64,000 nt of DNA from Owenia fusiformis (Eukaryota; Annelida; Polychaeta; Sabellida; Oweniidae). The DNA lies in assembly GCA_903813345.2 (NCBI GenBank), contig CAIIXF020000007.1, positions 19,891,564-19,955,563 of the forward strand, given 5' to 3'. The notes below the pieces were generated by a model. That model worked only from the letters and a program-made list of their open reading frames with translations. It searched no databases and had not been told where the DNA came from. Below, piece by piece: positions 35,782 to 62,517 of the stretch (positions within the stretch are counted from its first letter, which is position 1; each line of letters opens with the position of its first letter). The translations under genes were made by a program, and so were the position numbers.

Positions 35782-37529
35782 TTACTGTAAGATTCTCTCC
35801 TTCCAATGAGCCTGGACTGATGGGAAAGTCCTCTGGTATTCATATTTAATCAAGTCTTCATCATTATACAGGGTCTTAGGATCTCTGGGATATCTATAAC
35901 CTCCATTGTGATGCTCATCTAGTTCTTCATGATAATACCCATAATACCCTCTCGGACCCCTCCATTGTGGTACTCTACGGGCCTCATTGGTTGGCCAGGG
36001 CTCGTGGGAGTTGTACATGGTACGAGCATTATTACCAGTGCGCCACATGTTGTAAGGGTTAAAGGCATAGCCTGACAGCTTAACACCTGGGGAGTCATGT
36101 AGGTTACTTGACACTTTGAAACCTGAAAAATACAATGATAATTTATCAGTTTTCTATGAATGAGTGAACTGAAAGACATATTTGTCCTTTTTTCAATACT
36201 AGGAAATACATTTTTTAATTCATTTTTCACATTTTTCAAACATATAGTATCATCAGTATTTTAATAATAAAAACATTTTGTTCATTCAGTGTGGCTGTAT
36301 AGCTAATAGATACACTATCATAAGATTTATTGTATATGTATTGTGTATATAAAGATGGAAGAAAAACTGAAGAGGGTCATGCAGAACCGTACTTTCAAAC
36401 TGACCAAAGTAAGTAAAATACAAGACCATCATTCAAAAAACAAATCTTCAATCTACCAAGATGAGGTTTAATGTAGGACCATAATTCAGAGTGACCAAAA
36501 CAAGCAAATACAAAACCATAATTCATGGAGTACTTTTCATGGACCACTTAATAACAAACCATGTCCATAAAAGGAGCTTACAAGGTATCATAATTACATA
36601 ACTGTAAAATATATTAATTTGGTTTACAGTTCTTTCTCAAAAATTACTAATAGACTGATCTGTGAAATTTGCATGAAAAAAAATAAATGTAACCATTCAG
36701 ATCAATGGACATAATTCTGGAATTATGAACGCAAATATGGAATTCATGAAAATTTCACACATAAAACATGTATATTAAACATGTATATAAACATTCACTT
36801 ACCAGAAGAAGCACATGTAGGGCCATGTATCGACCCAACAGCATCACGTTCACTCTGCCATTTTCTCCACTTATCCTCAGACTGGAAATCCTTCATATCC
36901 ACCTTCCTTATCTCTGGTAGGGCTTTCACATCATGGTGCTTGATCCACTCCCTGTTGCCAGGGGTGTAGTAATTCTGACCACTCCATAACATTGATTTAC
37001 CATCCCCTGAGAGATAGTTGTTGGCTGGGTAGGACCTAAATGGACCCTCTAGAAGATTCCTAAATTAAAATTAAGACAATGTTATAATGGTGAACTTAAG
37101 TTTGCCGTACACTAAGTCCAAAACTAATGCTGTTGAATTTTTACATTTAATCAAGGTGATTTAATACTAGGGAACATGTATGTGTCAATTTTTTTAAAAT
37201 GAATCTGATGAAATTTTTATATATAATTTTGTTCATTCTTCTATATATGTTGATAAATATACTTATTATCATTTGGTTTAATTAACATAATTTGCTCTTT
37301 GAATAACTTCACTATTTGGTAAGATGTCATGGATATTTTGGATAATATACTCGTAGTATTGTTTGTTGAAAAAATGATTTGACCTTAAATTCTCAATCAC
37401 ATGGTTAAAAGTCTTTAAGCCTTGTTTTAACTCATTTAATTTACTTACAATAAGATTTTAACCCTACCTTCTATCAGCATTTATATGTGTAGCCTTTCTT
37501 CTATTTATATGTTCAAATGTATACGCCAT
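35782..37529 (-). CDS. 219 aa Tyr/Trp-rich soluble protein, family not recognised, complete
   Basis: Three exons on the minus strand, 37529-37468, 37059-36803 and 36122-35782, join with matching phases (2, then 1) to give 660 bases and 219 residues. The predicted protein starts MAYTFEHINRRKATHINADR and ends QAHWKERILQ. It has no signal peptide, membrane segment, coiled coil or enzyme motif. It is rich in Tyr, Trp, Asn, Gly, Pro and Arg, with turn-like motifs such as NNYLSGDGKSMLWSGQNYYT, DKWRKWQSERD and RGPRGYYGYYHEE. This composition is common in short axonemal microtubule-inner and sperm-flagellar proteins, but I cannot place it in a named family, so that role is a guess. It is convergent with Atos. 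The ATG at 37529 is the first in frame; a spliced 5' leader from about 38.6 kb is likely. Confidence 0.85.
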
Positions 37530-38571
37530 TTTGTAGAAGTATAGTTAGAATCTCCTATAAAAGCTGCATATATTCACTTGATATATAAAAACCTGTACGC
37601 TTAAAGCAATGTTTACATGAATAGTTTATCAATATAAGCTTGTTGTTGCTAAGCAGCAATGCACTTTGTACCTTCTTGATTGAAGAGCTCTGAATCAATA
37701 AATTGGTCGAGATTGTAGTTTTATTGGATGATATTAACCAGTTCTATAGCAGCTGATTGGCAAGGCATTATAATATAATCTGGGTCTGGTTTAAAAGTAC
37801 TTTATGGAGAAAAAGGCATGTGACATTTTGAAAGTATTTGTCCTCTGAAATCTGATGTGAACAATGCAGTCAAGTATAAATAACATAGTGTTAAAGTTCT
37901 TGGGTAAATCATTTTATTGCAAAATATTTACTGACAAATATAACAAGTCCTTTCAATAAATAAAAACTAGAAAATGGCAACTCCATGGAATTGCAAATCC
38001 CAACGAACAAATTCATATTCATTAATCTGTATATCACAAAACAATATTTACCATTTACGTCTCTACCCTTGATTAGCATCTTATAAAAGACAGACATTGG
38101 AGAATTAAGCATTTTGGATGACCATAGGAATATCAAAGGCACAAATCATTAAAGTCCCCGATAAATCGGGCTACGTATACCGCCGTGTTTACATTAGGGG
38201 ATTAGAAGAGTTTATTTTTTATTTAGGTATGCAAGCTACGTATATCAATATTAGGCCTTCATTCATGTACTCGTGTGCATGTAATCAGCATGCCCTTCAA
38301 TATTATGTAAACCAGGCTATTCAAGTACTGTATAATGTACACTATTTATGTGTGTACTACATACAATACAATTCCCTGGGAAACAAAACACAAATACTTT
38401 TTTTATGTTCAAAATGAGCCATTTGATTGATGCAAACACTAAATAGCTTCATAAATAACATCTACAAAGAATATCTAATAGTAATTTTCAATTTCAATGG
38501 TGAAACTTCCCTGGTTACGATTATATGGGAAATCATCACGAGACGAAGATCGTTCGCCTTCCTGGCTTACC
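37530..38571. other. Probable 5' intron of the 219 aa protein gene
   Basis: Just upstream of the start codon the minus strand contains possible acceptors (ATATATGCAG and CTTTTATAG), suggesting that the leader is spliced. A short plus-strand frame at 38118 has no splice or family support and was not called. Confidence 0.4.
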
Positions 38572-38640
38572 TCTGAATCGTGTACCTGGTAATCTCTTTA
38601 TATAGTTTAGCGAGAGCGGTGCGCCTGCGCAGTTTTAAAC
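38572..38640 (-). promoter_or_regulatory. Candidate leader exon and NRF1-like promoter for the 219 aa protein gene
   Basis: On the minus strand a strong donor, CAGAG|GTAAGCC, lies at 38572/38571. Just upstream of it is the GC-rich motif TGCGCAGGCGCA (38621-38632), close to the NRF1 consensus (GCGCATGCGC-like), in an otherwise AT-rich area. NRF1 sites typically mark TATA-less, broadly active promoters. Together they suggest that transcription begins here and the leader is spliced to the ATG exon at 37529. This is inferred from motifs only. Confidence 0.4.
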
Positions 38641-44300: not shown

Positions 44301-47300
44301 AACATAAATGTACATTAAATAAAATAAACTTCTTTCTAAATCGACTATTTCAAAATGAGCAGTTCAAAATGCATTACCTGGTTTTGTATGTATACACTTT
44401 TAGTATTTTCTAGATAAAGATTTCCCTAGACTAAAACATTACCTTCTTTCTTTCAAATAGAAATAATTCTTTGATTTATTTTCTTTATATTTTTTATCAA
44501 GATATATTTATTCAAGGATTTAAGCCCTGGATTCAATGTATTGTGTGCGGAATCATTCCTCTTGAAGGTGTTGTTTTCAAATCTTTGCATGACAACGCAG
44601 TCGGAATGCAAAGTTTAGGAAACAATGCCTGAGTGGAATGAATCAGCCACAATTCATCGAGTCTTGGGCTTGAATTCTTTTCACACATTGCAAAATACTT
44701 TATACAATATCACTTAAAAGATCTGAAAAATATATTTCAAAGGAAACTTTTTGCTTTTGCAAGGGTCAAGTTGTAACTAAACTACTGTTTGTATCACTCA
44801 ACATAACGGATTGTCACCTTGACAACTATACAAGACTTACCATTTGACCTGCATACAAGCATGTAGCTTCTTATTTCCTATGATACTATTTATAGATTTT
44901 TACTCAACTATGAAATTGATCAGTTTATCAGTTTAATTAGTTTACTAGAATCTGAAACAAAAAAGAAAAGTGATGCTGGGTGGTTGTTGATAATATAATG
45001 CAGTGCAGTTATAAGGAACAACTCATTTTCTGTGTATGTACTAGAGGTGTCAAGTATTAACCGGTTAACCGCCGATAATGCCTTGACCGGTCTGAGTTTT
45101 TATGGGCGGTTAGTTGACCGTGTATAATTCTGTTATTTCCCGCGCTTATTTTGCATGCTAATCCGTTTGGTTTTATGGTGTCAGTTTCACGTAAGCTACT
45201 CATACATGTCATAAGTCCCATAACTCCTTACAAACATCCAATCAGCAACCTTAATCCCTGCCACATTGCTTTTCCGCGCTTACTTTGCATTTTAATCTGT
45301 TTGTTTTTCAAGCGTCAGTTTCATGTGAGCTACTCATACATGTGATAGGTCCGATAATTCCTTACAAACATCCAATCAGCAACTTTAATCCCTGCCACAT
45401 TGCTTTCCCGCGCTTACTTACGTAGAATATCGTAAAGCTTAACGAACGTAAAAAATAAACGCCGATATATCATTTTTCCAATTTTTTCGACTTTCAAGAT
45501 CGAAGATGAAGATTTCATTTGAAATTATCAGTTCAAATTTCCCGCCGGTTAACCGACTTTAACCGGATAAAGCCCCCGGTTAACCGGTTAATGCTCAAGC
45601 GGTTAATTGACACCACTAGTATGTACATCTCACATTCATTTCATATTTGAAACACCATGAAATTTATATTTGATATCTGTAAGATTGCCTTAAATCATTA
45701 AACTGCAAATTCATCTATTGTAGTCAAGTCAGAAAGAGTGGCCAGTCTATTGAGATAAGAGTAAGATAAACAAAGCTCCAAATAATGGACAATTACATAA
45801 TTCAGATGATCAATATCTGTAAATGGGGATCAATTGTTCCTTGTTAAATTGACAAAAGAAAAATCAATGAAATTATGTGATATCCCAACACTAGCCTATA
45901 TTCAAACTTGACCAATGGGTAATATGAATTACATTAAGAAATCCAGAATCATATGAATCAATTAAAGATTCTTCATTTGCAATTTAAACCTAAGATGAAA
46001 AGGTACAATTTTATAATAGATGAATGAACTACTTCACATCTCAAACAAGGTAAGACATTATTTTGTTTCTAATATATCATATATCATTGTATATTTGTAG
46101 TATACCAATGATATAAATGTCTATTTCAGAGGTGTTCAAGGGATGTCATAGATTAGTCAAGAACATAATATCAACATCTTTAATATAAGTAATTTCCAAG
46201 TGTAAAACAATGTTTTGATATTATGATATTTTGTCAAGTTGGTCAAAATTTCTCATTTCCCAAGACCATGGATTCAACATTTTCAAACAAAAAACAAACA
46301 AAACCTAAAATGCAGTGCCCACTTTATTCAATGATACGGAGATCAGTGGTCACCAGTGTATGCTATCTGGGTTCCTTATCAAAAGTGGTTATTTCACGAC
46401 TTATAGTTAACTTGTTAAGAGCATAATCCTAATAGAATGTGGCACTGGCTAAAAGGTCAATTAAACATTGTATAACTCAAGCCTAAACGTATGAATACAT
46501 TATTCAATCTTTAATATTTCTTAGAGAGGGTACTACATTCAAAGTCAACACTATAAAGGTTTATATACATCCCTTATATAAACATCAACTGGAAATAGGT
46601 TTGGAGGTAAATGGTGATAAAAAGCTATTGTCTGATACAGTGTATATTAGAAACAGACTTCTATAACACAACTTTATTAGAAAACATCCGAAAGATGAAT
46701 GATCAAGAATGATCTCAGAATGCAATAGCATAAGAACTTTATTCTTAAAAGAAAAAAAAATATCCGGTTTATAAGGATTTCATTATTAAAAATTAAAAAT
46801 GACACAAAAAGGATAATTACAATATCACAAACGACATAATAGTTAATTTGGATTTGTTCAAGGATTTATAACAAGATGCTGGCAAAGGTAACCGACATTT
46901 GTCTTTCTTCTGGCTGACAACATTATGTTCTTCTTATTTATTATTATAATGGATTAATTGCATGCACATTCGTACTTTTAAATCCTAAACAACTCCACAA
47001 CCAAAGATTAAAAGATTGCCAGAAAACTCACACAAAACAATGAGCTCTAGAAATTGGTACCATCAAACATCTGTTTTTGAACTTTTTGGAACTGCACCTT
47101 GATGGCAAAATTTATCTCCATGTAATAAGAAAAATGGGTGCCTAACAGATTATCCACCACAGAACTAATGATACCATTTTTTATCTATACTAATTCGTTG
47201 GAATGATGATGAAAAGATTAATTTTAAGAAATACATTTATCTAATAGACATTGCTACATAATTAATAATTGTAGTTACCACAAATACTTTTATAAAGTTT

Positions 47301-50300
47301 ATGGGAAATGGGAGTCTAACCTTATTGTCTTTGGCTTATTCCAAAGCAAATACTTACATTTTCCTAACCTGAAAATTCATTACTGTTGTGGTCAACAAAT
47401 ATTAATTAGTTGGGACATCTGTTCAGTATATGGACGGCATTAAACCTAGTAATAGTATTATATAGTTATTCAACTATTGTTTTTTTAATTGTTTCAGATA
47501 CCTTCTTCATATAAGTTCACTATCTTAAAATCCTTAATATCATATGATCGAGTTGTATATAAAGAGCAGAACAATATGAAACAAGATGCCATTTTAGCAG
47601 CACATGTATGTACAAACACCTTATCTGGCAATTTAGTATCTAAGATCTACATTTCAGGGTCAGATTAAAGGCTGGTCAAGTCTGTTTAAGGAAGCAAAGG
47701 ATAAACCAGGCCTTCCTACTGTCACTGTTAGCCCAGTAGAGTCTGATTCTTCTGATAAAACAGTGATGTCTGCCAAAAAAATCACCAAGAAATTAATTCT
47801 TGCAAGTAAGTGTCTTTTCTAGAGCGCCAAATGTGCAATTGTAACCAAATGACTTTATATTAAAATGATCCTTATGATTGTCCAAATGGCTGTAAGTATG
47901 ATATCTAATGTTACCTCAACAACTATCATTTCGAAGTCTCAAAATTGTGTTCCTTATTGATCTCTGGCAGTATATTTGGCAATTCAAAAAGTTGGAATTT
48001 GGACATACTATTTTTATTAAAACATATTTGGGAACATAGTATGGTTAATATTCAAAATTCCCACATATCATATCTGAAATCAACACACACAACCACTGTA
48101 CTACTAAAAGTAATTTTCCATATTGTTGATCAACTTAAATATTGTAACGACCCGAGGGCGTCTCCGAAGAGCTGTAGTGTAACAAGCCAGATATTGGACA
48201 TGAAAGGGAGTGTGTTAAATGCAATGTCCGGGAATCGAACCCAGGACCTTGCGCTCCATACACCGATTCTCTACCCCTGAGCCATAAGGGCTAGTCACTT
48301 CACTTAAGACTAGTAGCAACTTGTCATCGAGGGTCATTACACTATTTTTTATTTTGCGAGTCTGATTTAGGTTCTCAGAGTCTGCGTTATGAAATCGTGA
48401 TATGTGAAATATCTCTTTTTATTGAACAAAATAGGCCACTGGAACTTTTATTCAAGTTTAAGGTGCAGCTGGAAAATAACATTTTGGGAAAAATTGCTAT
48501 ACCTGCACGTGTTATTTTCTGGTACAAAATTAAGTATGAAGGCATGTGTGTATTTCCTTGCTTTTTTCAGGAAAATATAATTACAAATGTCTACTTTAAG
48601 TAAACCTGGAAACAGGTCAATGATAGCTGCTGTGCTGTCTAGAAACCTTGAAAGAAAATTTGGAAAAATAGAAAGCGTGAAATATCAGAATTTCCTGGAG
48701 TTCCCATTGAACTCTTACCAGATTTACTAAAAGAAGACAATGTAATGATACTTTCCTGAAAAAAGCAAAGAAATGAACACATGCCTTCATACTTTATTTT
48801 GTACCAGAAAAAACATGTGCAGGTAGAGCAATTTTTCCCCAAAATGTTATTTTCCAGCTGAACCTTAAGCGGACTTTTCATAAATATATGATGCTGGTGG
48901 TGAAACTGTTAACTCATTACTTCTAACCAGATTATTTGAACCATCATAATTTGTATACAAACACAAAATTATATAGATATGAAATCATGACTTACCACAT
49001 GCCTGAGTACTGGCCAAAGTATAGTTAGAAGTGCAGTGCAGAAAAAATCTGGTTCCCACCAATTGATGTTGTACAGAGGCACACTGACCTGAAATAATAT
49101 TGAAAAAGAGAGAATATTACATATGAATACTGCAAAAGTATGTAATCAGTGTAGATGAGGTATCAGTCTGAATGAAAGGTCTGAGATCACAAGAAATTAT
49201 TTCATGCATCGTTTTTTACCTTTCAGTGGAATAAGTCCAAAGTCTGAATCACCTTTTCTGTGAGTCAATTCATTTCAGATAAATTAGTCTTATTTGCAGT
49301 AGACCTGTGGCATTTTGTAATTTCGAGGAGTTTCAGCTCTGATAATTATGTTCATTATAGTGAATAGCCCTATTATGAGTTAGAACTCAGTCTATTACTC
49401 CAATGTTCTGTCATGTGGTAATTTCAGTGATTTTTTTTGCACAAAATTAATTATTATTGAGGTAATGCTTCATCTAATGGCTTAAAACGTTGTTTTATAA
49501 GCATTACTTCAATAAAAAAATTGTAGAAATTTAATTAGGTAGTAAGGTGCAATTAAATGCATATAAAAGTCTAATAGAGATAAAGCTAGCAGAACATGTA
49601 TGCAAATTAATTTACGACATTTGGGCATTTTGAATTACAACTTACATGTTTACAAATATGTTTGAATACCCACATTAAACATAGGAGAAGTATAGTCAGA
49701 ATATTTCTGTAATGACCCTCGATAGCAAGTCACCACTACAGTCTGGGCTGTAGTAGCTAGTCCCTTTGGTAGAGTGTTGGTCTTGCGAGCGGAAGGTCCT
49801 GAGTTCGATTCCTGGGCACTGGGCATTGAATTAAGCACACTCCCTTCAGGTCTATTATCTGGCTCGTTACACTACAGCTCCCCGGAGAATAAACATGTAA
49901 CGTTTGTAGTATTATCGCCCACAAATATATTGTTTTGTTAAACTTATTATCTGAATAACTTCATCAAAAGTGACGTGAATATGTAACAAACCAAATTTCA
50001 AAAAATATCAGACTAGAGGGTATAGTCTAGCCCTTATACAGGTGACACTTTTTTGATAGGTTTCTGCTCTTTTTTCCTTGGTAAATAGAGAGTTTGGAAG
50101 GGTGGATTTTCATTTCAGTCAATTCAACTCCATGTATCTGTTCCAGTGCTTTTGCGATGGCAGGTGCAGGTGTGATTGATACTAACATAGGCCTTGGAAA
50201 CATGTAGGCATTAACATGACAAAATGTCACCACCTAGTTGCTCACAATATTATGAGTGCAATCTTAAATCAGGTTTGAATTTCTGAGAACTTGAAGACGA

Positions 50301-53300
50301 TTTTTGAAAAAAATATTGGTCAATTTGAAGCAAGTTGAAAAAAGACCCTTTTTGACCCTGAGAAGGTCATTGAAGGTGAAATCTCAAATCTAAAGTCAGA
50401 TTTGAACTTTTTATTTCACAAAACACAACAATATACATATACAATGAGTGGGTGACACAAGGGTTTGTGTATATTCCCAAGATGGAGTAAATTTACAAAG
50501 TATGTTAGAGTGGCAGGGATCTGCCATTGCATGTCTTCAATAATATATATATATAATTTGTGCCATCAAAATGCCCCTAAATCACCCTTGGTATACGCAG
50601 CTAACGAAAATTGACCGGTACGGGTCAAAAGCTGGACCGGTACTGGTTAACGGTTTTATTTGAATTTAAAACAGCCATAACATGCATACTTTGTAAATTT
50701 ACTCCATCTTGGGAATATACACAAACCCTTGTGTCACCCACTCATTGTATATGTATATTGTATGTGTTTTGTGAAATAAACGAAAGTTCAAATCTGACTT
50801 TAGATTTGAGATTTCACCTTCAATGACCTTCTCAAGGTCAAAAAGGGTCTTTTCTTCAACTTGCTTCAAATTGACCAATATTTTTTTCAAAAATCATCTA
50901 CAAGTTCTCACATTTTCAATTCTATTTACACCCTTGGTATACGCAGCTAACGAAAATTGACCGGTACGGGTCAAAAGCTGGACCGGTACGGGTTAACGGT
51001 TTTATTTGAATTTAAAACAGCCATAACTTGCTCAATATTGACTTCCTCGTGTCTAATTTGAAATATATGATGCCTCCCGATGCTTTTAAGTACCCCAATT
51101 TTTTACAAATTTTTAAACCGGTCCGTCTTCTCGCTGCAAGCAGGAGGAAATTCTTTGTCACAAAGTTTGGCATTTTTTATAAAATCAAACGCGCGTCATT
51201 GAAACTCACAAGATGTAAATAGCATGTCATTTACATCATACCTTGATGGGGAAAAATAGATCTTATATGTTAAAGTACTAAATAAAAGTTATCGTGAAAA
51301 TGAGACAGTCGTTCTCGAGAGAAAAGAGCATAAATGCGCATTTAGAGAGTTTTGGTCCGTTTGCCATTACAGTTTTACATATTACACCTAAATTACTGTA
51401 AAATCGGCACTAAAATGGCCGCCATTTTTAAATGAGCGGCCATTTTGAAAATCGGCTTTCCAGCAGAACTTCTACCCCCATAGGGTATATGTGTACAAAA
51501 TATGAACAAAATCGGGCCAACGGTATTTGAGTTATTGCCCGGGCGGATGGAAGGACGGACGGACGGACATATGTACGGACGGACGGACCGACGGACGGAG
51601 GCGTTTCCTATATCCCTCCGAACTTCGTTCGATGGGATAATTAAAGTTGTAGTAAATTTTTTTTGTCTGTTTTTTCATGAGTATGATGCTTCTGATAGAT
51701 TTAAAATGTGAGAACTTGTAGATGATTTTGAAGAAAAAATTGCCAATTTGAAGCAAGTTGAAAAAGACCTTGTTAACCTTTTTTGATCTTGAGAAGGTCA
51801 TTAAAGGTCAAATCTTTTTTGACCTTGAGCAGGTCATTGTGGTTCAAATCTCAAGTCTATAGTCAGATTTGAAAGAGAACTTGTAGATGATTTTGAAAAA
51901 AAATTGATCAATTTGAAGCAAGTTGAAAAGACTTTTTTGACCTTTTAACCTTTTTTGACCCTGAGAAGGTAATTGAAGGTCAAATCTTAAATCTTAAGTC
52001 AGATTTGAACTTCTGACAACTTGATGTGGGTGATTTTGAAAAAAATTGAAGTCAGTCTAAACAGTGTTTGTTAAGTTATTGAAAGTTGTAAGAATTTGTT
52101 ATGGACGCCAACCGCCAATCACCAACTGCCGTCACAAAAAATGGAGACCATAATAATTTGTCACCACTTTTTGGTGGAGACATTAAATTTGAGTTAAGTT
52201 CTGTATGAAAAGAGATCTCTTAGAGTACTCGACTCAATTTATTATACATGTTCTCAGGGCCTATGAATACTAAGATGATGGGTGCATGACAATGAATGTG
52301 AAGTGATGTAAAGCGTAGTAATGGCATGACTGGCATTTTCAGAATTTTCAACCTTATTTGGAGATGAGAATTGTCCCTGTCATTTTCTAGTACACAGTGA
52401 GCACCATCAATCTTCATTATTCAGTTATTTGACTGAAAAGTGCGATTAGTCTTTTGACTACCGGTTTGGACTCCCGCTTTTTGGTCATAATCACATCACT
52501 AAACATTATTTTAATACTTAAAACATGGTCAGGAGGCCGTTTCTCGAAAGTTTTGTTATTAAGGAATCGTTAATTCAATGTTAATAACGATATTTCCGTT
52601 TCTCGAAAGTTAACGATTCGCGATGACGTCATGATCTTTAACGATTTATTCGTTATCCAAGATTGATTTTACGGGTACAAATGGGGGTCTCGTTATTCCA
52701 TTAACGATGCGGTGTCCAATGAAATGAATCCAAGTTTCGCAATTAACGATTCGTTAATATCGATAAGTTTCGAGAAACGGCCTCCATGAATCACTTCCAA
52801 AATCGCAGATATTGAGCTTGAATCACAAATTTATTACTTTTTTGGGCCAAACCTCAGCTCATGGACATGACCTCATATCTATTTATAGATCGCTAAAAAA
52901 TGTAAAAACTTATTTTTTCTGACAAGTTACAAAAATCACGGACGTCGAGTAAGTTTCTGGCGAAAGCTGGAGCATAGATTATTTAAGAGGACTGGAAACA
53001 AGAATGACCTACCTTTTTATTTCCCGAAGCTCGCCTGAAATTAGCTCATCTTGGTGACTGTAACCTGTATATCTGTATTAATAGAGTCTCTTTGGCTCTT
53101 TGTATCGCATCTGCCTCAATTTTAAGTTTTATTGGTATTTTTAATATGATTTCACTGTTTTTGTGGACTGGATGATTCAGCCAAGGAAATGGCAGCTGAC
53201 CCGTTCAAAGTACTTTTACTACTAATTATCGCAAATAACAATAATTTGGGAAACAATATTATACTAAATAGATTACTAAGCATCTAAGGTAAGTAAAACT

Positions 53301-53947
53301 AGATGAACAACTGAGTCAATAGGCTCAATAGTGATAAATAGGCCAACACGAGTTGGCAGATTTGAAATAGAGTGCCATCTTGTTTCCAGTGTTTCAATAT
53401 TATAATTATAATTTCTTCTTTTATGAGAGAGACAATCAGGACATACAATATATATAAAATAATGGAATACAAAATCTGCGCAACAAGTGTAAACTGAAGC
53501 ACATGAGAGAGCACAAAGAGAATCTACAGTACACGAGACGAACTGCCGAGGAAACAGCGGCTTATGCAACACAACAACAACAATTTCCAGTCCTCTTAAA
53601 TAATCTATGCTCCAGCTTTCGCCAGAAACTTACTTGACATCCTTGACAAAAATATGAAAGTTGAATAAACAAACATATAATATTACTGATCAAAGCCCCT
53701 GGCATGAGAAATAATTATTTAAACTAGAATTTTCTCTAAGTTACCGAACTTAATTCTATTATATTAGATATTAGATAGATGGTGCTGACTGTGATCTAGG
53801 CCTAAGCTTACAGACTAGTATTTCTATTTGCATACATTACATTGCAGAAAATGCAAAATTATTTCAACTGTAAAGTGCATTCTAAATAGTTCTACATACC
53901 TTTGAAAAATCTATATACGGATATTCTTCACAGCATCTATGCTGCAT
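41374..53947 (-). CDS. 188 aa protein with about five membrane segments, family not recognised, complete
   Basis: Seven minus-strand exons, 53947-53900, 49088-48996, 44296-44199, 43746-43619, 42708-42624, 42214-42140 and 41413-41374, join with consistent phases (0,0,2,1,2,2) into 567 bases, 188 residues. An in-frame stop precedes the ATG. Hydrophobic stretches lie at about residues 29-47 (FFCTALLTILWPVL), 63-79 (MIPLLVGGGYVYLLV), 98-119 (GLLYTGYTACISGIVMVL), 134-150 (VFLALILCHTGLALV) and 153-173 (AGLFLTFVLVLTQAAITVL). The protein is therefore a small polytopic membrane protein of the ER or another membrane. There is no signal peptide. The N-terminus is short with a CC pair, and the tail is charged (EHDTPTNHEKVE). 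No catalytic signature was recognised; similarity to lipid-modifying enzymes is only general. The two largest introns (4.8 and 4.7 kb) are filled with mobile elements, and intron 2 holds a plus-strand exon. Confidence 0.85.
41690..41832. repeat. GTCACCACC...GGTGGTGAC repeat copy
   Basis: Contains AATGTCACCACC at the left, CACCAACCGCC in the middle and TCCTGGTGGTGACATAAC at the right. Related copies are at 43951-44043 and 52104-52185. Confidence 0.65.
42946..43420. mobile_element. PIF/Harbinger-like MITE, ends GGGGCGGGGTCAAAATATC
   Basis: Left end GGGGCGGGGTCAAAATATCA and reverse-complemented right end GGGGCGGGGTCAAAATATCG. The inverted repeat runs about 50 bp, through TTCATATGGAGACGAAAGTA. 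TAA flanks both sides (42943-42945 and 43421-43423), matching the 3 bp TWA duplications of PIF/Harbinger elements. It is non-autonomous and lies in an intron of the five-pass membrane protein gene. Confidence 0.8.
43951..44043. repeat. GTCACCACC...GGTGGTGAC repeat copy
   Basis: AATGTCACCACG at the left, CACCGTCACAAAAACTTTTT in the middle and GGTGGTGACATA at the right; a shorter copy of the family at 41690-41832. Confidence 0.65.
45042..45618. mobile_element. hAT-type non-autonomous element with exact 8 bp target duplication
   Basis: GTATGTAC occurs at 45034-45041 and 45619-45626, immediately outside ends TAGAGGTGTCAA and TTGACACCACTA. An 8 bp duplication and TAGWGGTGTCAA ends are diagnostic of hAT elements. 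Near the ends are AACCGGTTAACCG motifs in inverted orientation. The interior holds a ~137 bp tandem duplication (GTCAGTTTCAYGTRAGCTAC, then CTTACAAACATCCAATCAGC) at about 45145-45418. No transposase is encoded; the 64-codon frame at 45151 is repeat-internal. Confidence 0.92.
47658..47805 (+). CDS. Plus-strand coding exon (phase 0 in, phase 1 out) of the downstream multi-promoter gene
   Basis: A 148-base open exon lies between acceptor CTACATTTCAG and donor CTTGCAA|GTAAGT. It encodes about 49 residues beginning GQIKGWSSLFKEAKDK, with a Ser/Asp/Thr-rich middle (TVSPVESDSSDK) and a basic end (SAKKITKKLIL). There is no ATG between the acceptor and the upstream in-frame TAG at 47634, so it needs an upstream exon, not identified. 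Its donor phase (1) matches the four ATG-bearing exons downstream, so it probably joins the same body beyond the window. It sits inside, and antisense to, intron 2 of the five-pass membrane protein gene. Confidence 0.55.
48143..48341 (-). mobile_element. tRNA-derived element with LTR-like TG...CA inverted ends (copy A)
   Basis: Read on the minus strand it starts TGTAATGACCCTCGA and ends GGGTCGTTACA, an 11-base near-perfect inverted terminal repeat with TG...CA ends. Inside is a tRNA-like pol III promoter: A box TGGCTCAGGGGTAG (48284-48271) and B box GGTTCGATTCC (48241-48231), followed by a non-tRNA tail (ACACTCCCTT, TATCTGGCTTGTTACACTAC). The tRNA part does not fold to an intact gene as far as I can see. 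It could be a SINE whose ends happen to look like an LTR, or a solo LTR/TRIM that captured a tRNA. Confidence 0.7.
48457..48870. repeat. Inverted repeat with ~127 bp arms
   Basis: The left arm 48457-48583 (AAGGTGCAGCTGGAAAATAA, GTATGAAGGCATGTGTGTAT) pairs with the right arm 48743-48870 after reverse complementing. The frames at 48397 (+) and 48639 (-) are the two arms translated and are not genes. Confidence 0.8.
49372..50027. mobile_element. Interrupted hAT-like element (third copy of the 54664 family)
   Basis: TAGCCCT lies just outside both ends (49365-49371 and 50028-50033 with its preceding T). The sequence matches 54664-55020, sharing GCACAAAATTA, TAGTAAGGTRCAATTAAATG and CAAATTAATTT. 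The match breaks at about 49707 and resumes at about 50005 (TCAGACTAGAGGGTATAGTC), which places the tRNA-derived copy B as a later insertion inside this element. Confidence 0.65.
49708..49905 (+). mobile_element. tRNA-derived element, copy B
   Basis: Starts TGTAATGACCCTCGAT like copy A. It carries A box TGGTAGAGTG (49767-49776), B box GAGTTCGATTCC (49801-49812) and the same tail (ACACTCCCTT, TATCTGGCTCGTTACACTAC, AGCTCNNCGGAGA). The inverted 3' terminus seen in copy A is not recognisable here; the insertion as judged from the host element runs on to about 50005. The TTGCGAGCGGAAGGTCC segment resembles a tRNA anticodon arm, but isoacceptor identity is unclear. Confidence 0.75.
50213..52187. 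repeat. Composite repeat block: nested inverted, direct and tandem repeats
   Basis: The block begins with ATGTCACCACC and ends with CACCACTTTTTGGTGGAGACATTA, so it may be one long member of the GTCACCACC family. Inside are an inverted repeat (50283-50504 with 50685-50911), a ~99 bp direct repeat (50583-50681 and 50929-51027, GGTATACGCAGCTAACGAAA), a GGACGGAC microsatellite-like tract (51551-51600), palindromic GGCCGCCATTTTT sequence (51411-51450), and about three tandem units around 51710-52030 sharing AATTTGAAGCAAGTTGAAAA and GACCTTGAGMAGGTCATT. No gene was found. Confidence 0.65.
52532..52786. mobile_element. MITE, ~255 bp, ends GGAGGCCGTTTCTCGAAA
   Basis: The left end GGAGGCCGTTTCTCGAAAGT and reverse-complemented right end GGAGGCCGTTTCTCGAAACT pair, and both run into ATTAACGATTCG-type sequence. 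TTAACGATT and TTCTCGAAAGTTAACG repeats fill the interior. No clear target duplication and no coding capacity. Confidence 0.8.
52940..53642. mobile_element. TIR element, ~703 bp, 57 bp inverted ends
   Basis: Left end GGACGTCGAGTAAGTTTCTG and reverse-complemented right end GGATGTCAAGTAAGTTTCTG. The inverted repeat continues without gaps through GCGAAAGCTGGAGCATAGAT and TTAAGAGGACTGGAAA. The minus-strand frames at 53276 and 53299 lie inside and have no family support. It is located in intron 1 of the five-pass membrane protein gene. Confidence 0.85.
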
Positions 53948-54379
53948 TGCATCGATATTTTGTTGAATGCGTTAGATTATGCTCGGTAATGCATCCCTAA
54001 TATTGCGCATTTGTTTTCAAAAGTGCCTGACACATTTTCTTCACTTCCGGGTCGAAACTATTATGAGTCTAAATTACAAATTTATTTGAATTTACCAGAC
54101 GGATATAATATTATTACATAAAATGAAGGATATTTTATATTTTTTAAGCAGCAAATATTTATTGTATAGTATTTTTATATTAAGAGAAAAAGCACGTTTT
54201 TTCAATACCATTACTTGAAAACTATTTTTTGTAGTCTCAAATTGCGCATTTAGATTTACAGTTGTCAAGAAACAACATGGCCGCCAAGTGAAAACTTAAA
54301 GATTTGAAATTTTTTGTTTTCCCGATTTCGACCGTATATATACGATAAAAACACTTCATTAGAGTTAACAGCGTTTAAT
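53948..54379. promoter_or_regulatory. Candidate bidirectional promoter between head-to-head genes
   Basis: Only 432 bases separate the start codon of the minus-strand five-pass membrane protein gene (53947) from the plus-strand ATG at 54380. The interval contains CACTTCCGGG (54041-54050, an ETS/GABP-type site, a hallmark of bidirectional animal promoters), two GCGCATTT motifs and AACATGGCCGCCAAG (about 54272-54286), a YY1-like AANATGGCNGCC site. The YY1-like site contains ATGGCCGCCAAGTGA, a four-codon upstream reading frame if it is transcribed in the plus direction. There is no TATA box at canonical spacing. Transcription start sites are inferred. Confidence 0.6.
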
Positions 54380-54434
54380 ATGAGTAGTCGTCTTAGTGTA
54401 AAGCCGTCCAAAAAGGAAAGGCCGAGGTCTTCTG
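54380..54434 (+). CDS. Alternative first coding exon 1 (18 codons plus one base)
   Basis: ATG at 54380 opens a 55-base exon ending at a strong donor (TCTTCTG|GTAAGT) in phase 1. The peptide MSSRLSVKPSKKERPRSS is basic and serine-rich, resembling the short variable N-termini of multi-promoter cytoskeletal or signalling proteins. It lies immediately downstream of the presumed bidirectional promoter. The next common exon is beyond 64000 and the protein family is unknown. Confidence 0.6.
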
Positions 54435-54585
54435 GTAAGTATCATACCTTTTATTTGAAAAACGAAGATCTCTAAATTACCTAGACTTTACACTTACAGT
54501 TTGGAACAAAACAAATGACAGGTGGATTCTCTATCACCATATCCAAACCATGGTGTTTTGAAAGCCCTATAGTCTCAAATATTGT

Positions 54586-55622
54586 CTATAGTGCTGATAT
54601 GTAATAATAAAGGATGCGTTTTCAAATTAAACAGAGAGCTCCTACCAAAATTAATTTGTCACTTAGTATGTATCCAACAGACTGACTAGAAGTCAGTCTG
54701 TTATGATGTACTACTTTCCTGTGGAAATTGCAGTGAATTTTTTTGCACAAAATTATCAATTGCAGGAACCATTTCTTCAATAAAATAAACATTACAAAAT
54801 TTCAATTAAATAGTAAGGTACAATTAAATGCAATAAAAAGTAACACAGCATATTGTCAAGTGGAAATAAAGCTAGTTGAAGAAACAAATGTGCAAATTAA
54901 TTTTACCCAATCGGCCATTTTGAATAGCACTTCCTATGTAAACAAATATTTAGAATTACCGAACTTTAACATAGGTGCCTTATAGTCTGAATATAATTCA
55001 GACTAAATAGGATATAGTCTATTTGTCACTACTCCCTGAGACTCTTATAATATCTGATAGATAGATAGAATGCACAAATAAAACAAAAGTTTTGCTATTA
55101 TACAGTAGGTAAAAAGTTCGAAGTGATTTTACCTGTTAATTCTGTCTGTGGTCCGCCATTTTTGTGGAAGTTACACTGAAACGCAAACTCCATGAAACCA
55201 TGGGCTTTCAACTAGATTCAACTAATTGAAAGCCCATGATGAAACGAAACGAAATCACTAGAAAAAAACATGACACGCATCGTGCGCATGTGCAGCAAAG
55301 TTTAAACCAATCAGATGATTTGATAATTTTGCGCACATGAATAATTTGCTTCTGAGCACTTACAAGATTACCACAATAAACAAACCTGGCAGAGACTACC
55401 CTTAAAGTTTAGCCTACTTATTTTGGCGAAATTTCAGCTCAAACTTGTGAAAAATGCATTATGCATATGCTGGTGTGAAGCCTTGGAGACACTCATTTTG
55501 GTAAATATGATTTATGGTGTATACTTTTCTGCAGTTTGTGGGAGTTTGGGACATTAAATGTTAAAATTCAAGAAAATATGCCAATTAAACGACTCATAAA
55601 TTAATATATACCAGCACTATAG
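54586..55622. mobile_element. TIR element, ~1.04 kb, ends CTATAGTGCTG (copy 1, with nested insertion)
   Basis: Ends TATAGTGCTGATAT and ATACCAGCACTATAG are inverted repeats. A second, smaller copy is at 56208-56739. This copy is larger mainly because 54664-55020 is inserted, flanked by ATTTGTCACT on both sides (54654-54663 and 55021-55030). The interior includes ATCGTGCGCATGTGCAGCAA and GCGCACATGAATAATTTGCT, shared with copy 2. No transposase is recognisable. Confidence 0.8.
54664..55020. mobile_element. Nested insertion with 10 bp flanking duplication
   Basis: A 357 bp segment bounded by identical ATTTGTCACT copies. Imperfect inverted ends (AGTATGTATCC at the left, GACTATATCC at the right when reverse-complemented). 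It is absent from copy 2 of the host element at the corresponding place, which shows that it is an insertion. The 80-codon frame at 54743 is inside it and is not a gene. Confidence 0.8.
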
Positions 55623-56207
55623 ATACATATCCCTTAAAATTTGAATATTTTACATTTTGTATACTGTCATCCACTGATGTATGACCTCCTGAAAATTCTA
55701 ATTTTTTTAACATGGGAAATCCTCACTTCAGCAAATCCACGTGTCATTATTTTTGTTCCAAATAGACTAGATGCGAGTAGAAAAAAACTTGATTTACGCC
55801 ATTAAATATTCAAAATTCTGTCAAAGCGATGTTATATTTGAAATCTACATGTAAAAGTACATTTAGAAATATGCTTTCGAAAGTTGTTTATCAAGTTTGA
55901 AAATTTAATTATTTTTGAAAATGTAAATTCTAGTTCGGGTTGATTCTCCATAGAGCCCATGTTACAAAATCACAAAAAGTGAAATGTCTTTTCTTGTATC
56001 GGTCAGATAACATTTTCATTCACTGGACATATTTTGATTTGCATAACTATTAGATACATAAGGGTTATATGAAAATTGAACCGCTAAAACAGATGTAATT
56101 GAAGTTAAAGGGAACTTTCTGCTATATCCACCATGCTATCTGACCCGAACGAGCCACCTGGTGGTGAAACTGGTAACTACCTACTCGCATCTGCGTTGTA
56201 GGCTATA
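55623..56207. other. Noncoding spacer between two copies of the CTATAGTGCTG element
   Basis: AT-rich; contains TAGAGCCCATG (about 55952) related to the hairpin in the first gene's 3' region. Nothing else supported. Confidence 0.4.
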
Positions 56208-56739
56208 GCCTAGTGCTGATACAAAATAATAAAGGGTGCGTTTTAAGACTAAACAGAGTGCTCCTACCAAAATGAATTTGCCTACATACCCCAGAGTCTT
56301 ATCTGATAGACAGAATCCACAAATAAAACAAAAGTTTTGCTATTATAGTGAAGTGATTTTACCTGTTAATTCTGTCATTGGTTACACTGAAACACAAACT
56401 CCATGAAACGAAACAAAATTACTAGAAAAAACCATGGCACACATCGTGCGCATGCACAGCAAAGTTTATACTCGGAATCAGATTATTTGATTATTTTGCA
56501 CACATGAATTATTTGCTTCTGAGCACTGGCGGAGATTACCCTCACTTCATTTTTGCGAAATTTCCGCTCAAACTCGTGACAAATGCATTATGTATACGCT
56601 GGTATGAAACCTTGGAGATACTCATTTTGGTAAATATGATTTACAGTGTACACTTTTCTGCAGTTTGTGGGAGTTTGGGACATTAAATGTTAAAATTCAA
56701 GAAAATATGCCAACTAATTAATTTGTATCAGCATTGTAG
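56208..56739. mobile_element. TIR element, ~532 bp, copy 2 of the CTATAGTGCTG family
   Basis: Starts CCTAGTGCTGATACA and ends TGTATCAGCATTGTAG. It is collinear with copy 1 except for the nested insertion and internal deletions. It shares AATAAAACAAAAGTTTTGCT and GTTTGTGGGAGTTTGGGACA. Same orientation as copy 1. Confidence 0.8.
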
Positions 56740-57048
56740 TCTACAGTTAATATTGAAACAGTATATGTAAAAATAGAAACATTTATACATGTCCTAACTT
56801 TAGTTTATTTAAGTTCGTTTTGTAGTGTAGCTCTCATATCTGTGGCCTCTTATATTTTGATGCTTCGCTGCCATGTTATTTTTGTAAAAATAAACATGGC
56901 TGAAACTCCCTAAATTACAAAAGGCCACTTCAGCTTACTTTACTGCACATTATACATAACTATTTGAAATATACAAAAGTTAGGAGGGCTTTTAATGTAA
57001 AAGATCCCCAATGCACAGTAACAAGCCTGCACTACTGGTAAAGAGGGG

Positions 57049-57976
57049 AGTTGATTTAATGTAATCCTGTTGGTATATACACGTATATTACATTATGTTG
57101 TCTAAAGTTGCTCTCTGCTTTCTTGCTGAATTACCACTATGGATCTAGATGATATTTATTATGATGAAATAAAATTCTGTTTCCTTCATGAACATATTTT
57201 GAATCCATTGATAAATTATAATTGGTGTGTATAACCTATCATTTTCTGTTGGTTAAAATTTTCTGCAAGAATATAGTAAGCTATAACTTACATTTATTTT
57301 TGGAAAAAATGTTTGCTAATTTTCATCTCATGTCTTGCTAACTGAACCTTGATGTTATTGGTTATAGGGCCTGTACTGTCAGTTATAGTGTGCATACTTC
57401 TTTTTAAATACAGAAAGAGGGCATCATAATCACTCCTCTCCTATTGATCGGCAAATCCAATAATCCTACATACTGGTAGTTACATTATTTTCTTGAAGTT
57501 GACACAAACCCTTATCTGTATGGCATTTTTCTTTTAAACATGTAGTTCAACATTTTGTATGACTACATACTAATTTCTTCTGCATGTATGATTATTAACT
57601 AGAATCAGATGTACATGTATTGATGTTGACATTACTACCTACTATTGTTTTCCAAACAATTTATCATTCTCACCATTTTGTATTCTTTTAAGATCTTCAA
57701 TATTAAATCAAGACTTTAAAAATGATTCACTTTCTTTTTTTATGAGAACAAGTTTTTGAATTCAAGAATCTCTTAATTCATAATTAAAGATGCAATCATA
57801 TTTGCTTCATAAAACGATTCCTTTAATAAAATTTATTCCAGTAAAGATATTTATTTCATCAAAATAAATAGCATATAGATTCATAGTGGTAATTCAGCAA
57901 GAAAGAACAAAGAGCAACTTTAGACAGCATAATGTAATGTACATGTAGAAACCAACAGCATTACATTAAATCAACT
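57049..57976. mobile_element. Foldback element, ~930 bp, arms ~135 bp
   Basis: Left end AGTTGATTTAATGTAATCCT; the right end, reverse-complemented, AGTTGATTTAATGTAATGCT. Pairing continues through ATTACATTATGYTGTCTAAA, GTTGCTCT and GCTGAATTACCACTATG. The interior is AT-rich with no coding capacity. Confidence 0.8.
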
Positions 57977-58656
57977 GGAAATATGATGAGTTAATTTGAG
58001 TTCTTGCTTGCAACTGAGGAGCATTTATGACATAAGCTGTCAGTTAATACTCAAACAATCTGATTTTTTTCTTCAAAATTCAATTAATCTTTTATACCTT
58101 ATTAACTCCAGACAGAAGTTAAACTATTTAACTCTAAATGTTTGCATTATTACTAAACTCCGTTTGTTCACCTTTTCAAAGATCATACGCTTGAAGAATT
58201 TTGGAACGTATTATTTCACACATTTAATGAAACTGAAAACTGGGCAAACACTATCATATAATTGTATCTAACTTTGAGCAAACTTATGAAACATTTTACA
58301 AGATTTCTTGAATGTCACTTATTTGTTTAACCATTGGTGACCATGACTCAGGTGTGAATTCAAGGACAGTCTACATGCAATAGCCTAGCAACAAAAAACC
58401 AACCTCATTGTGCCATTGAAAAAGACAAAGTAGTCGTTTTGAATAAGAATTTTTATGATATTGACTCTTGGTGTAAAATTGAAAAGTTTCAAAAGTGGAA
58501 AAATATTTGCTAACAAACAGCGAACAATGAAAAGTTAAGTGTAATATGTTGGATACAGAATACAAAGAATTGAGTAATGTGATCATTTTGGTATATGGAA
58601 ATACATAGGCAAGCCAAGGAAACATGTAGGAAGGACTGTATTAGAGGAATTTTAAC
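57977..58656. other. Noncoding; presumed promoter region of the 58657 exon
   Basis: AT-rich with short random frames in both directions. No CCAAT, ETS or TATA arrangement stood out close to the ATG at 58657. Confidence 0.35.
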
Positions 58657-58723
58657 ATGTCAAGTGAAGATCGAAGAGAAAGTCTGAGAGGCTCAGCGAC
58701 TAGAGCCAAGTCTTTATCAGCAA
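58657..58723 (+). CDS. Alternative first coding exon 2 (22 codons plus one base)
   Basis: ATG at 58657 opens MSSEDRRESLRGSATRAK..., ending KSLSA in phase 1 at donor TCAGCAA|GTAAGG. The peptide is basic and Ser-rich with RRES and RAKS motifs that fit basophilic kinase sites. It starts with the same MSS as the 54380 exon but is otherwise different. It matches the phase of the other candidate first exons, which supports a shared acceptor beyond the window. Confidence 0.6.
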
Positions 58724-59493
58724 GTAAGGAGTCAGATATGTTATACTGTAGATAAGTGTTCTTGATATATTTTTATGCCACCACCAAGGAGTGGTAACAT
58801 AATGTTTTAGCTGCCTTTTGGAATAGCATTTGTCAGCTGTAACAAAATTGTTACATATTTGTGATCACTTGCAATATCATTTGCCAGATGGTAACGTGTT
58901 ATCTTGTAAATGACTTGTTTTATCTTATTTCATTAAAACAAGACAACATTGAAATGTGGTACTGTAGTAAATATATGAACAACCATAAAAAGGGAGTTTG
59001 ATATCACACAGTATAATTAAGTATTGTTATTATTGAGTAGCATAATTGTTTGTTATTTCTCTATTATCTCTTATATTCATATTTAGACTACTTACCTTTT
59101 ATTTGTGCGATCATTTTATAGATCCTTGTTTGGTATACATGAACCCTATCTTGAGCCCATATTTTGCTTTGGTTCATCTGCATCCTATACATGTGTTCAA
59201 TTATGAGATTCAAAGCTGAGATTGCAAATTTTGAAGCATATTGTGTCAGATCATTATTATATTGTGAATGAGTGAAAATGGATAATCAAAGTCAATTTAA
59301 ATATAAGAAGATTTCAGTAATCCCTAAATTATTTATATCTGATCCTTTAATTGGTGATTAATGAGGACTAATAGGGAGTAATTCTTTAATATATCACTGA
59401 GATTCATCAAGATTTCATTAGTGACATATTTAATTCTCAACTGTTCACCAAACATTCATATTCTAGAGCTGAATTTCAACATATTTTTCAAAA
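58724..59493. other. Noncoding spacer between candidate first exons
   Basis: AT-rich. ATGCCACCACCAAGGAGTGG near 58774 may be a remnant of the GTCACCACC repeat family. No promoter motif could be singled out. Confidence 0.4.
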
Positions 59494-59731
59494 ATGAAGT
59501 CAACCAAGTTTATGAAGTTAAAAAAGCAAGCAGATGAAAATGCCATAGCAGAATCGGATTCACCTTTGCTGTCTCCTACAACAGACTTAAGTTCACCATT
59601 AAAAGGACATTCTCCAATGTCTCCAAAGAAACCTGGGTCAGAGATAGCTGCAGGCTCAATCTCCAAATCCCCCAGGGCACTCTCTGGAGGTCGGAGGAAT
59701 TTATTCAAAGGCAATGTTTCTAATGTCTTGA
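59494..59731 (+). CDS. Alternative first coding exon 3 (79 codons plus one base)
   Basis: ATG at 59494, open to donor GTCTTGA|GTAAGT at 59731, phase 1. The peptide begins MKSTKFMKLKKQADENAIAE and is proline-directed-site rich (SPLLSPTT, SPLKGHSPMSPKKPG, SKSPRALSGG), so it is probably a disordered, phosphorylatable N-terminus. It ends with a basic/hydrophobic run, GGRRNLFKGNVSNVL. Codon use and the absence of stops over 238 bases in AT-rich DNA support real coding. A stop (TAG) follows within the intron, so it must be spliced onward. Confidence 0.7.
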
Positions 59732-61861
59732 GTAAGTAGATCAGTAAGTAGTCAGCAACTTGATAAACTTAAATATTATCTAAACTACAGGCTGTATATA
59801 GTTATTGGTAATTTAACATGTTAATGGTAACTTCTGTGAAAACAATACTCGTCTCACTTTGGAAAGGCCTGCTATATATGTTCAAGTAGAATCAAAGAAA
59901 TTGACCCCAAGTACATGTAAGTTCATTCTGTTAATTTTGCACATTTGTTTGTTTAACTTTAAGATCTAGTAAAGGATGATATAAATGATTTTATTTCATT
60001 GATTTGATTAAATAATTTTATTACATAATAGAAACAATATGATTGACTTCAAGAACTTATATAATATTAGCAGTTCCCTCTCCCTCTTTTCATATTGGTA
60101 AAGAGACTCTATATTAACAAAATTACTTAAGAACATTTTCTCTATCCTAGCCATTATTAGTTTTATAATAGACCCTGTTAATGATTCCTAGTAATATAAG
60201 AGTGGCATTTATATGATCTTTGCATGTGTTTCTCTTATTTGTATCACAGCAAATGATGAAAAATGGTTTAATGGTTTATGAAAGCTTATTAAAGGTTTAT
60301 TAGTTTGGGATATTAAACTGTTCTTTGTGTGATATGGAATAGACGTCTTTGAATATGTAATCCACTATCAAAATACTTTTTAAAATTCCAATTTTAAATT
60401 ACATCATTGTTTTGATTGAAACCAATGTTTGTATCCTAGAACTACTACACATGGCTTGACATTCACTTAGTGATAGCATAAGCATATAGAATCATATATA
60501 ATTCAACCTGAGCCTGTAGCCATTTTGAAAATTTATGACTATGAGAATTGTTTCGAAATAATCATGAAAAGAGCTGGATTTAGTATATATGCAAGTAAGT
60601 GACACATTTACAAAGATTTTTTAAAATTAATAATTTTGTATTGTAGCTTGTTTTGTCTTCCGTATTTTAGGAGACAGTCATCCGTTCAGTTAAATCACTC
60701 TGCAAAATTTATTGCCATATTTCTTTCCTGGTTTTAAAGCATCCCTAAGGTACGTACCTGCTATATATGGCTGTGTTCTAATTTTTAAATAAATAAGCAT
60801 AAATACTATAATCTTATCTGACAGCTGACACATTCAGTTGTTTATGCCCCTTTAACTAAAATACTAAAAGAAATGTTTTTGTGTCCCTTTAATCAAATAG
60901 GAATTTCTAAGAATGATTGACACAATTACCCCCAGAATCGAGGCTGTTCTTTGAATTTTATCTGATGCCTTCAAGATCATTATATATGATGTACACGTCC
61001 TTTTCATAGTCCTAGTTTTTTCTATATTTTACACAAATATTGGAAGGGCAGTATAATCTATATTTTCCGGATCAGATAGTGGCATCTAAGATAAAATAAA
61101 GCATTATTGCATATTGATTAATACATTATACTCTGACTCTATAATCTTGTCTACCTAAAATAAAACATGAAAATTCCCTTAACATTTTACATCCAATAAG
61201 TTTCATGGTCATATGGGATCTCTTAGCCATTCTTTACTATAAGCTTAGATACAATGTCGATGTCTTATTAGCTTATACTGGTTAAGGGTTTCTTTAAGAG
61301 CCTCAAACTAAAATTAATGATTTTTAGTTTTTTTTATTGTTATTCTGTTTCTATGTTTCGATGCTCAAGGATTTAGGGGTCACGTCAAATATTAATGTGT
61401 CATATTTGTAAAAAAAATATTAGAGGTAAAAACCAAGCTTGTTATAAATAAACATTGTCAAACATTCATAATTAGTTGATGATACTCTAATGTCAATGTT
61501 TCTCAAGCTTTAATACAAAGGAGAGGGGATCATAAGCTATATTAAGTAGTTTTGAAAAAGTAATATTTTGACCTGGTCCCTCTTAAATAAAATTATGCAA
61601 GGGTGCTTCTTATAAATACATGCATCACTATATAACTTTGAGAAAATGATTTTGAGCTCTATCTTGGGTGTTTCTAATGCTTCTTTTGAGTAGATTTCAT
61701 AAGAAAAACACAATTGTTCAAAAAAGATAAAAAGAAAGTATAGTCACAAGCTGACTGAGAAGAGGAAGGATAATATATGACATAGTTTTAATAGTTTTAA
61801 TGATTCAACATAAATAAGTCAGACAACTCAGTAGTATCAGAACACAGTTTCCACAAACAAG
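59732..61861. other. Noncoding spacer upstream of first exon 4
   Basis: AT-rich, no supported exon or bounded repeat. Its 3' end presumably holds the promoter of the 61862 exon; CCACAAACAAG precedes the ATG. Confidence 0.4.
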
Positions 61862-62144
61862 ATGGCTGACTTTGAGTCAAAAGAAGATGATGGCACACAA
61901 TCTCACAAACAAAAACCTGAAATGTTGCATATAATGAAAAAGAAAAGTAAAACATCTTTGGGTCTGAGGAAAACAAACCCAGTTGATAAGAATATTAGTG
62001 TTAATATAACAGAGACATTATCCCGTAGTTCTAGTAAAGCATCGCTGTCTCGAAAAGCTTCTGCTTCACCATTACCACTTGTTAGATGGCGTTCTAGTGG
62101 CTCCGCAAAGTTAAAATGGTTAGCTGTTGGTGAGAAATCACGTG
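61862..62144 (+). CDS. Alternative first coding exon 4 (94 codons plus one base)
   Basis: ATG at 61862 in good context (AACAAGATGG), open to donor TCACGTG|GTAAGT at 62144, phase 1. The peptide starts MADFESKEDDGTQSHKQKPE and continues with a basic, Ser-rich stretch (SRSSSKASLSRKASASPLPL). RKAS and SRSSSKAS resemble PKA/PKC-type sites. It ends KLKWLAVGEKSR. Like the other first exons it reads as an unstructured regulatory N-terminus. Confidence 0.7.
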
Positions 62145-62357: not shown

Positions 62358-62517
62358 AACATATTTGTTCATCAGTTCGATTTTTATCAAAGCCATTTTA
62401 TATGTTATTTATTACTCTTTAACTAGGTATAGCTGGAAACATATTTGTTCATCAGTTCGATTTTTATCAAAGCCATTTTATATGTTATTTATTACTCTTT
62501 AACTAGGTATAGCTGGA
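62358..62517. repeat. Exact 80 bp tandem duplication
   Basis: The 80-base unit starting AACATATTTGTTCATCAGTT and ending TAGGTATAGCTGG occurs twice back to back (62358-62437, 62438-62517) without a single difference, just downstream of the fourth first exon. Confidence 0.95.

Follow-up and report, generated by a model that had tools for sequence, protein, structure and literature searches.

This locus raises the question of which gene uses a series of plus-strand exons that all end in the same phase, and whether these exons act as alternative beginnings of one protein. The locus lies in a stretch of 64,000 nucleotides from the annelid Owenia fusiformis (contig CAIIXF020000007.1, positions 19,891,564 to 19,955,563 of the forward strand), hereafter the window; coordinates above 64,000 continue the window numbering on the plus strand into 40 kb of flanking DNA beyond the window end. 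An earlier note on the window had read the series as one gene with swapped N-termini and a shared body, and we found that the core of this reading is supported, while a promoter of its own for each exon and the membership of the exon at 47658 are not established. The most probable interpretation of the sequence is the 5' end of MYCBPAP with about six alternative ATG first exons (A to F, Table 1), which would have their own starts and would be spliced to a shared exon at 66022.

All five plus-strand exons of the earlier note (A to D and the exon at 47658) are open in frame and end in phase 1, four at a GTAAGT donor and one, at 58723, at GTAAGG. The five exons stand, but the list was incomplete, since exons E and F lie past the window end. 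The six ATG exons (6/6) end in phase 1 and are compatible with the acceptor at 66022, and an A occupies position -3 in 6/6 of their ATGs, vs 424/1215 background ATGs. An in-frame stop was found 12-72 nt 5' of each ATG in exons A to D, and exon E contains a second, stronger donor at 64779, which is also in phase 1. A perfect 80-bp tandem duplication (62358-62517) is located about 210 nt past the donor of exon D. The description of the encoded peptides as basic, Ser-rich and apparently disordered was borne out, each peptide being net basic and the disorder scores of the candidates ranging from 0.17 to 0.39.

Table 1. Positions and reading of the predicted exons at the MYCBPAP locus (window numbering)
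Feature	Positions	Strand	Type	Codons	Sequence	Phase	Donor
Exon A	54380..54434	+	ATG first exon		MSSRLSVKPSKKERPRSS	1	GTAAGT
Exon B	58657..58723	+	ATG first exon		MSSEDRRESLRGSATRAKSLSA	1	GTAAGG
Exon C	59494..59731	+	ATG first exon	79	MKSTKFMKLKKQ...	1	GTAAGT
Exon D	61862..62144	+	ATG first exon	94	MADFESKEDDG...	1	GTAAGT
Exon E	64719-64890 (outside window)	+	ATG-led	57	MSNKLKVRSNSEQ...	1	GTAAGT
Exon F	65806-65917 (outside window)	+	ATG-led	37	MSSKGSSKTDPRG...	1	GTCAGT (weaker)
First shared MYCBPAP exon	66022-66182 (outside window)	+	phase-1 acceptor		KLKGKKRDGTPEK...DEILALAIKEEDLTK		
Exon 47658	47658..47805	+	acceptor-bounded		GQIKGWSSLFKEAKDK...	0 in, 1 out	GTAAGT

A common downstream exon that accepts phase 1 had been set beforehand as the test of the one-gene reading, and such an exon is present at 66022 once the DNA past 64000 is examined. 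It begins with AT AAA CTA directly after the ag of its phase-1 acceptor, which scores 6.4, and its donor scores 2.0; acceptors were scored on a generic matrix, for which the null median of the best acceptor within 250 nt is 1.85. The body of the gene was built by a dynamic-programming exon chain from 66022 to 77.8 kb, with a bonus for covering Pfam matches, and was completed by hand from open reading frames (ORFs), giving a joined translation of 596 residues. This hand-completed translation matched Pfam MYCBPAP (PF14646) with an E of 9e-110 (368 bits vs a cut-off of 24.5) and the PDB chain 9ijj_v, named 'MYCBP-associated protein', with an E of 1.3e-96, collinear over chain residues 14-603. A chain named FAP147/FAP213 was matched with an E of 9e-10, and the only other Pfam match of the body was a weak one to MOV-10_Ig-like, below its cut-off.

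Searched exon by exon, the genome contained six matches to PF14646 with an E of 1 or less, four of them over the cut-off. All six sit at this locus, so MYCBPAP is single-copy as far as the PF14646 search can tell. Going by the predicted translation, the gene behind the alternative first exons is MYCBPAP, a protein of the ciliary C2a projection (FAP147 in Chlamydomonas). FAP147 is described as the C2a rachis in PMC9113940. The alignment with 9ijj_v begins at chain residue 14 and query residue 2, so little precedes the shared part in that chain. MYCBPAP/FAP147 of 9ijj_v has the same domain and body as the gene here, but 13 residues precede the region of the common exon in it, vs 18-94 codons in six versions at this locus. 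Within the MYCBPAP span, the minus strand carries a single-exon frame of glycosyltransferase family 11 (fucosyltransferase-like) at 69665-70855, with an E of 5e-36.

Chance is a poor explanation for the phase-matched exons. When 37.5-66 kb was scanned blindly for an ATG with an open frame of at least 50 nt and a GTAAG[TGA] or GTGAGT donor, there were seven matches on the plus strand (five in phase 1, two in phase 2) and twelve on the minus strand (five, four and three in phases 0, 1 and 2, respectively). The plus-strand matches past 54 kb were exactly exons A to E, 5/5 in phase 1 and all disorder-like. Exon F is absent from this strong-donor scan and is not independent evidence, because it was located by searching for phase 1.

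As the null, the interval of 54.3-66 kb was simulated 1000 times with a second-order Markov model, which gave 2.1 ATG-to-strong-donor frames per run, with a mean of 0.66 in phase 1. When composition was ignored, five or more phase-1 frames occurred in 2/1000 runs. When a disorder score of at least 0.15 was also demanded, a cut chosen post hoc with the candidates' scores already known, the mean of the phase-1 frames was 0.032, the maximum was one, and five were seen in 0/1000 runs. Likewise, 0/1000 runs contained a frame of at least 283 nt, or three frames of at least 170 nt. The null frames that matched the disorder scores of exons A to F numbered 0/239, 4/174, 0/55, 0/55, 0/55 and 0/66, respectively, and the score of exon 47658 was equalled by 0/55.

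Over the entire 104 kb and both strands, 74 strong-donor ATG frames were present, 18 of which had a disorder score of at least 0.15; among the 18 are some true internal exons, both of MYCBPAP and of an upstream gene, presumably ATOS. With laxer donors, the plus strand of the window region showed 16 disorder-like donor choices at nine ATGs, 13 of them in phase 1, and the minus strand showed four. Two further plus-strand frames obtained with laxer donors (38525-38588 and 64652-64736) are in phase 1 and disorder-like; they are weak and were not counted as exons. The control was the 40 kb upstream of the probable CFAP65 gene, where 0/17 strong-donor frames on both strands were disorder-like, the true CFAP65 first exon not being located there. 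Of three matches to the model of the fourth Ig domain of CFAP65, the best, at C7:30345245, was taken as CFAP65; the other two lie together on C3.

The same exons might instead be served by a single promoter, at about 54.3 kb or further up, with a noncoding leader spliced to alternative second exons that bear the ATGs. The earlier note had given four of the exons an ATG of their own and no upstream acceptor; the ATGs are present, and good acceptors are lacking for B, C and D, but exon A has a moderate one. A single leader could use this acceptor (3.4 at 228 nt) and the one upstream of exon F (4.0 at 132 nt), whereas for exons B, C, D and E the best acceptors in the preceding 250 nt score -0.4, -0.3, 0.8 and 0.1, all under the null median. 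Phase-1 AG sites within the open stretch, which would make the exon symmetric, occur only before 54380 (scores -3.9 and 0.2), 61862 (-2.3) and 65806 (-7.0), vs 6.4 at 66022. A design of multiple ATG exons without good acceptors is clear for B to E and less so for A and F.

The region of 57-66 kb is CpG-poor, as in a transcribed gene body, which agrees with a single leader; the ratio of observed to expected CpG (o/e) is 0.14-0.53 per kb there, although a small number of 300-bp bins rise to as much as 0.94. Against it, exon A has the sole donor with a score over 2 at about 53.4-54.5 kb, leaders further up not having been sought. We regard the single leader as unlikely.

Several observations, to which the moderate acceptors of exons A and F also belong, weigh against six first exons with separate starts. 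Exon A alone lies in CpG-rich DNA (o/e 1.46 and 1.32 in 300-bp bins at 53.9-54.5 kb, then 0.13), and exons B to F lie in 1-kb bins with an o/e of 0.16-0.40. Exon A is itself included in a patchy CpG-rich zone that starts at 50.9 kb, and no exon was found in the CpG-rich bins at 50.9-52.9 kb. An interspersed repeat with at least 39 other matches in the genome runs from 54471-54560 on, about 40-60 nt past the donor of exon A; because the repeat has its edge exactly where the CpG content drops, at 54.5 kb, this step is weak promoter evidence. X-box-like sites showed no excess, with 13 in 82 kb vs 16, 7, 9, 14 and 10 in five simulations. Synonymous codon usage gave no support over seven exons (p 0.20-0.93). 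The donor of exon C has a poor exon-side context (score 1.1), and that of exon F, GTCAGT, is not among the strong donors.

A similar CpG step was observed at the probable start of CFAP65, where the o/e falls from 1.11, 0.91 and 0.77 to 0.29, 0.14 and 0.12. According to PMC11292947, Owenia fusiformis has its methylation mainly in gene bodies, and its promoters are hypomethylated. The CpG step suggests that the exon at 54380 is the main start. For each of the first exons we infer a separate promoter.

If only one or two of the starts were real, most likely 54380 or 65806, the rest would be chance frames or decayed exons. The absence of codon-usage support, the weak donor context of exon C and the restriction of CpG-rich DNA to 54380 fit such a situation, but composition, phase, length and ATG context are jointly beyond chance and the frames of 79 and 94 codons are still open, and we consider it quite unlikely. 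The codon model was trained on the longest ORF from 12/24 training loci together with one ATOS exon, and for one of the loci the training ORF and the match by which the locus was chosen are on opposite strands. When amino-acid content was combined with codon usage, the exon at 61862 was reached by 0/200 null frames and the other six exons gave p 0.06-0.14. The codon test has low power, because the known common exon failed it too (0.42 and 0.07).

The exon at 47658-47805 had been placed among the matched first exons. Its phase-1 end stands, but its status as a first exon does not: it is bounded by an acceptor (score 3.2) and its entry phase is 0, so that it could be a first coding exon only if translation began at an internal ATG. 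At the thresholds used, the plus strand shows no other coding-like exon with an acceptor at about 30.2-54.3 kb. It is possibly an upstream coding exon, or an exon that is partly 5' untranslated region with an internal in-frame ATG (MSAKKITKKLILA). Because it exits in phase 1 it could feed 66022 too, and its membership in MYCBPAP is uncertain. Five candidates for an upstream phase-0 ATG partner (donor score of at least 3, at 36.9-47.6 kb, e.g. 46020-46049) were considered and none was convincing. The phase 0 entry of this exon and its want of a clear upstream partner could point to exons from different genes, but this is very improbable, as no other acceptor-bounded coding-like exon was found on the plus strand at 54.3-66.3 kb (at thresholds that also miss the 66022 exon with its donor score of 2.0) and all of the exons have a phase that suits the common exon.

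What the sequence itself shows is the frames, phases and ATG contexts, the lack of good acceptors at four exons, the presence of a common acceptor and the identity of the gene. With alternative first exons at the 5' end of MYCBPAP, transcription would begin at one of about six sites between about 54.3 and 65.8 kb, and the first exon so transcribed would bring an ATG of its own together with 18-94 codons for a basic, Ser-rich and disordered peptide. In all six cases the phase-1 donor would then join the shared exon at 66022. Transcripts that begin upstream would skip the later first exons, because most of these have no usable acceptor, and each mRNA would thus carry one N-terminus on the common MYCBPAP body. 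The swapped N-termini may tune docking at the C2a rachis, or phosphorylation, across ciliated cells.

Five kinase patterns were tested post hoc on the N-termini, with the peptides already known. The motif R[RK].S was found five times vs 1.0 expected (p 0.0015), in four of the six N-termini; RR.[ST] three times vs 0.5 (p 0.015); R..[ST] eleven times vs 5.9 (p 0.016); [ST]P eight times vs 4.0 (p 0.028); and [RK][RK].[ST] six times vs 3.0 (p 0.066). These counts are suggestive of basophilic kinase-like sites on the basic N-termini.

A transposon origin of the exons was ruled out, since the DNA of exons A to F and of exon 47658 has no matches elsewhere in the genome in searches that pass over simple repeats and highly frequent words. 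Five short weak matches at 58768-58921 fall outside exons B and C. Tandem duplication among the first exons was rejected as well: nucleotide matches between the exons with their flanks reached at most 11-12 nt, one strand being compared, and the best peptide E was 0.065.

Among the neighbouring features, the upstream plus-strand gene at 21967-30250 has a DUF4210 match at 28427-28639 (E 5e-11) and holds a 776-codon open stretch at 24657-26984; we take it to resemble ATOS/FAM214. The minus strand carries at 35785-37064 a gene without a Pfam match that has two or more coding-like exons. A 77-nt perfect inverted repeat, with more inverted arms around it, was found at 50428-50761. Zinc-finger-like open frames, presumably of the C2H2 type, are present on the plus strand at about 98917-99656, and a short-period tandem repeat at about 103080-103600 is open in several frames with QFEPI- and NWIGS-type repeats.

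The design with multiple first exons is already known, and what is new here is the gene that uses it, MYCBPAP. At the 5' ends of plectin and spectraplakin genes, several non-homologous coding first exons of the same phase are joined to a shared second exon and give different N-termini. The earlier note had drawn its analogy to plectin, spectraplakin and PDE4, and the first-exon design is indeed alike, but the family is not theirs: the body here is by Pfam MYCBPAP, a central-apparatus protein, and not a CH-domain cytolinker. GNAS likewise joins alternative first exons to a common exon 2, but it encodes another protein and imprinting is central there. In the clustered protocadherins and UGT1A, variable first exons likewise form an array that is joined to common exons, and the variable exons are tandem paralogues, whereas the first exons here are not paralogues. 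No description of alternative first exons of a central-apparatus rachis protein was found in a partial survey of the open-licence literature, and the words 'isoform' and 'promoter' do not occur in the main text of PMC13345628 on mouse MYCBPAP.

The N-terminus of mouse MYCBPAP binds CCDC108 (CFAP65) (PMC13345628), and the MYCBPAP-CFAP65 interface would therefore be a natural target. It is conceivable, though doubtful, that ciliated cell types build 'flavoured' central apparatuses through the choice of MYCBPAP promoter, each disordered basic N-terminus giving the C2a rachis, to which CFAP65 or another partner would bind, a docking or kinase site of its own. The central apparatus is usually pictured as a fixed set of parts; if the reading of MYCBPAP given here is true, the C2a projection could differ among the cilia of one animal without gene duplication.

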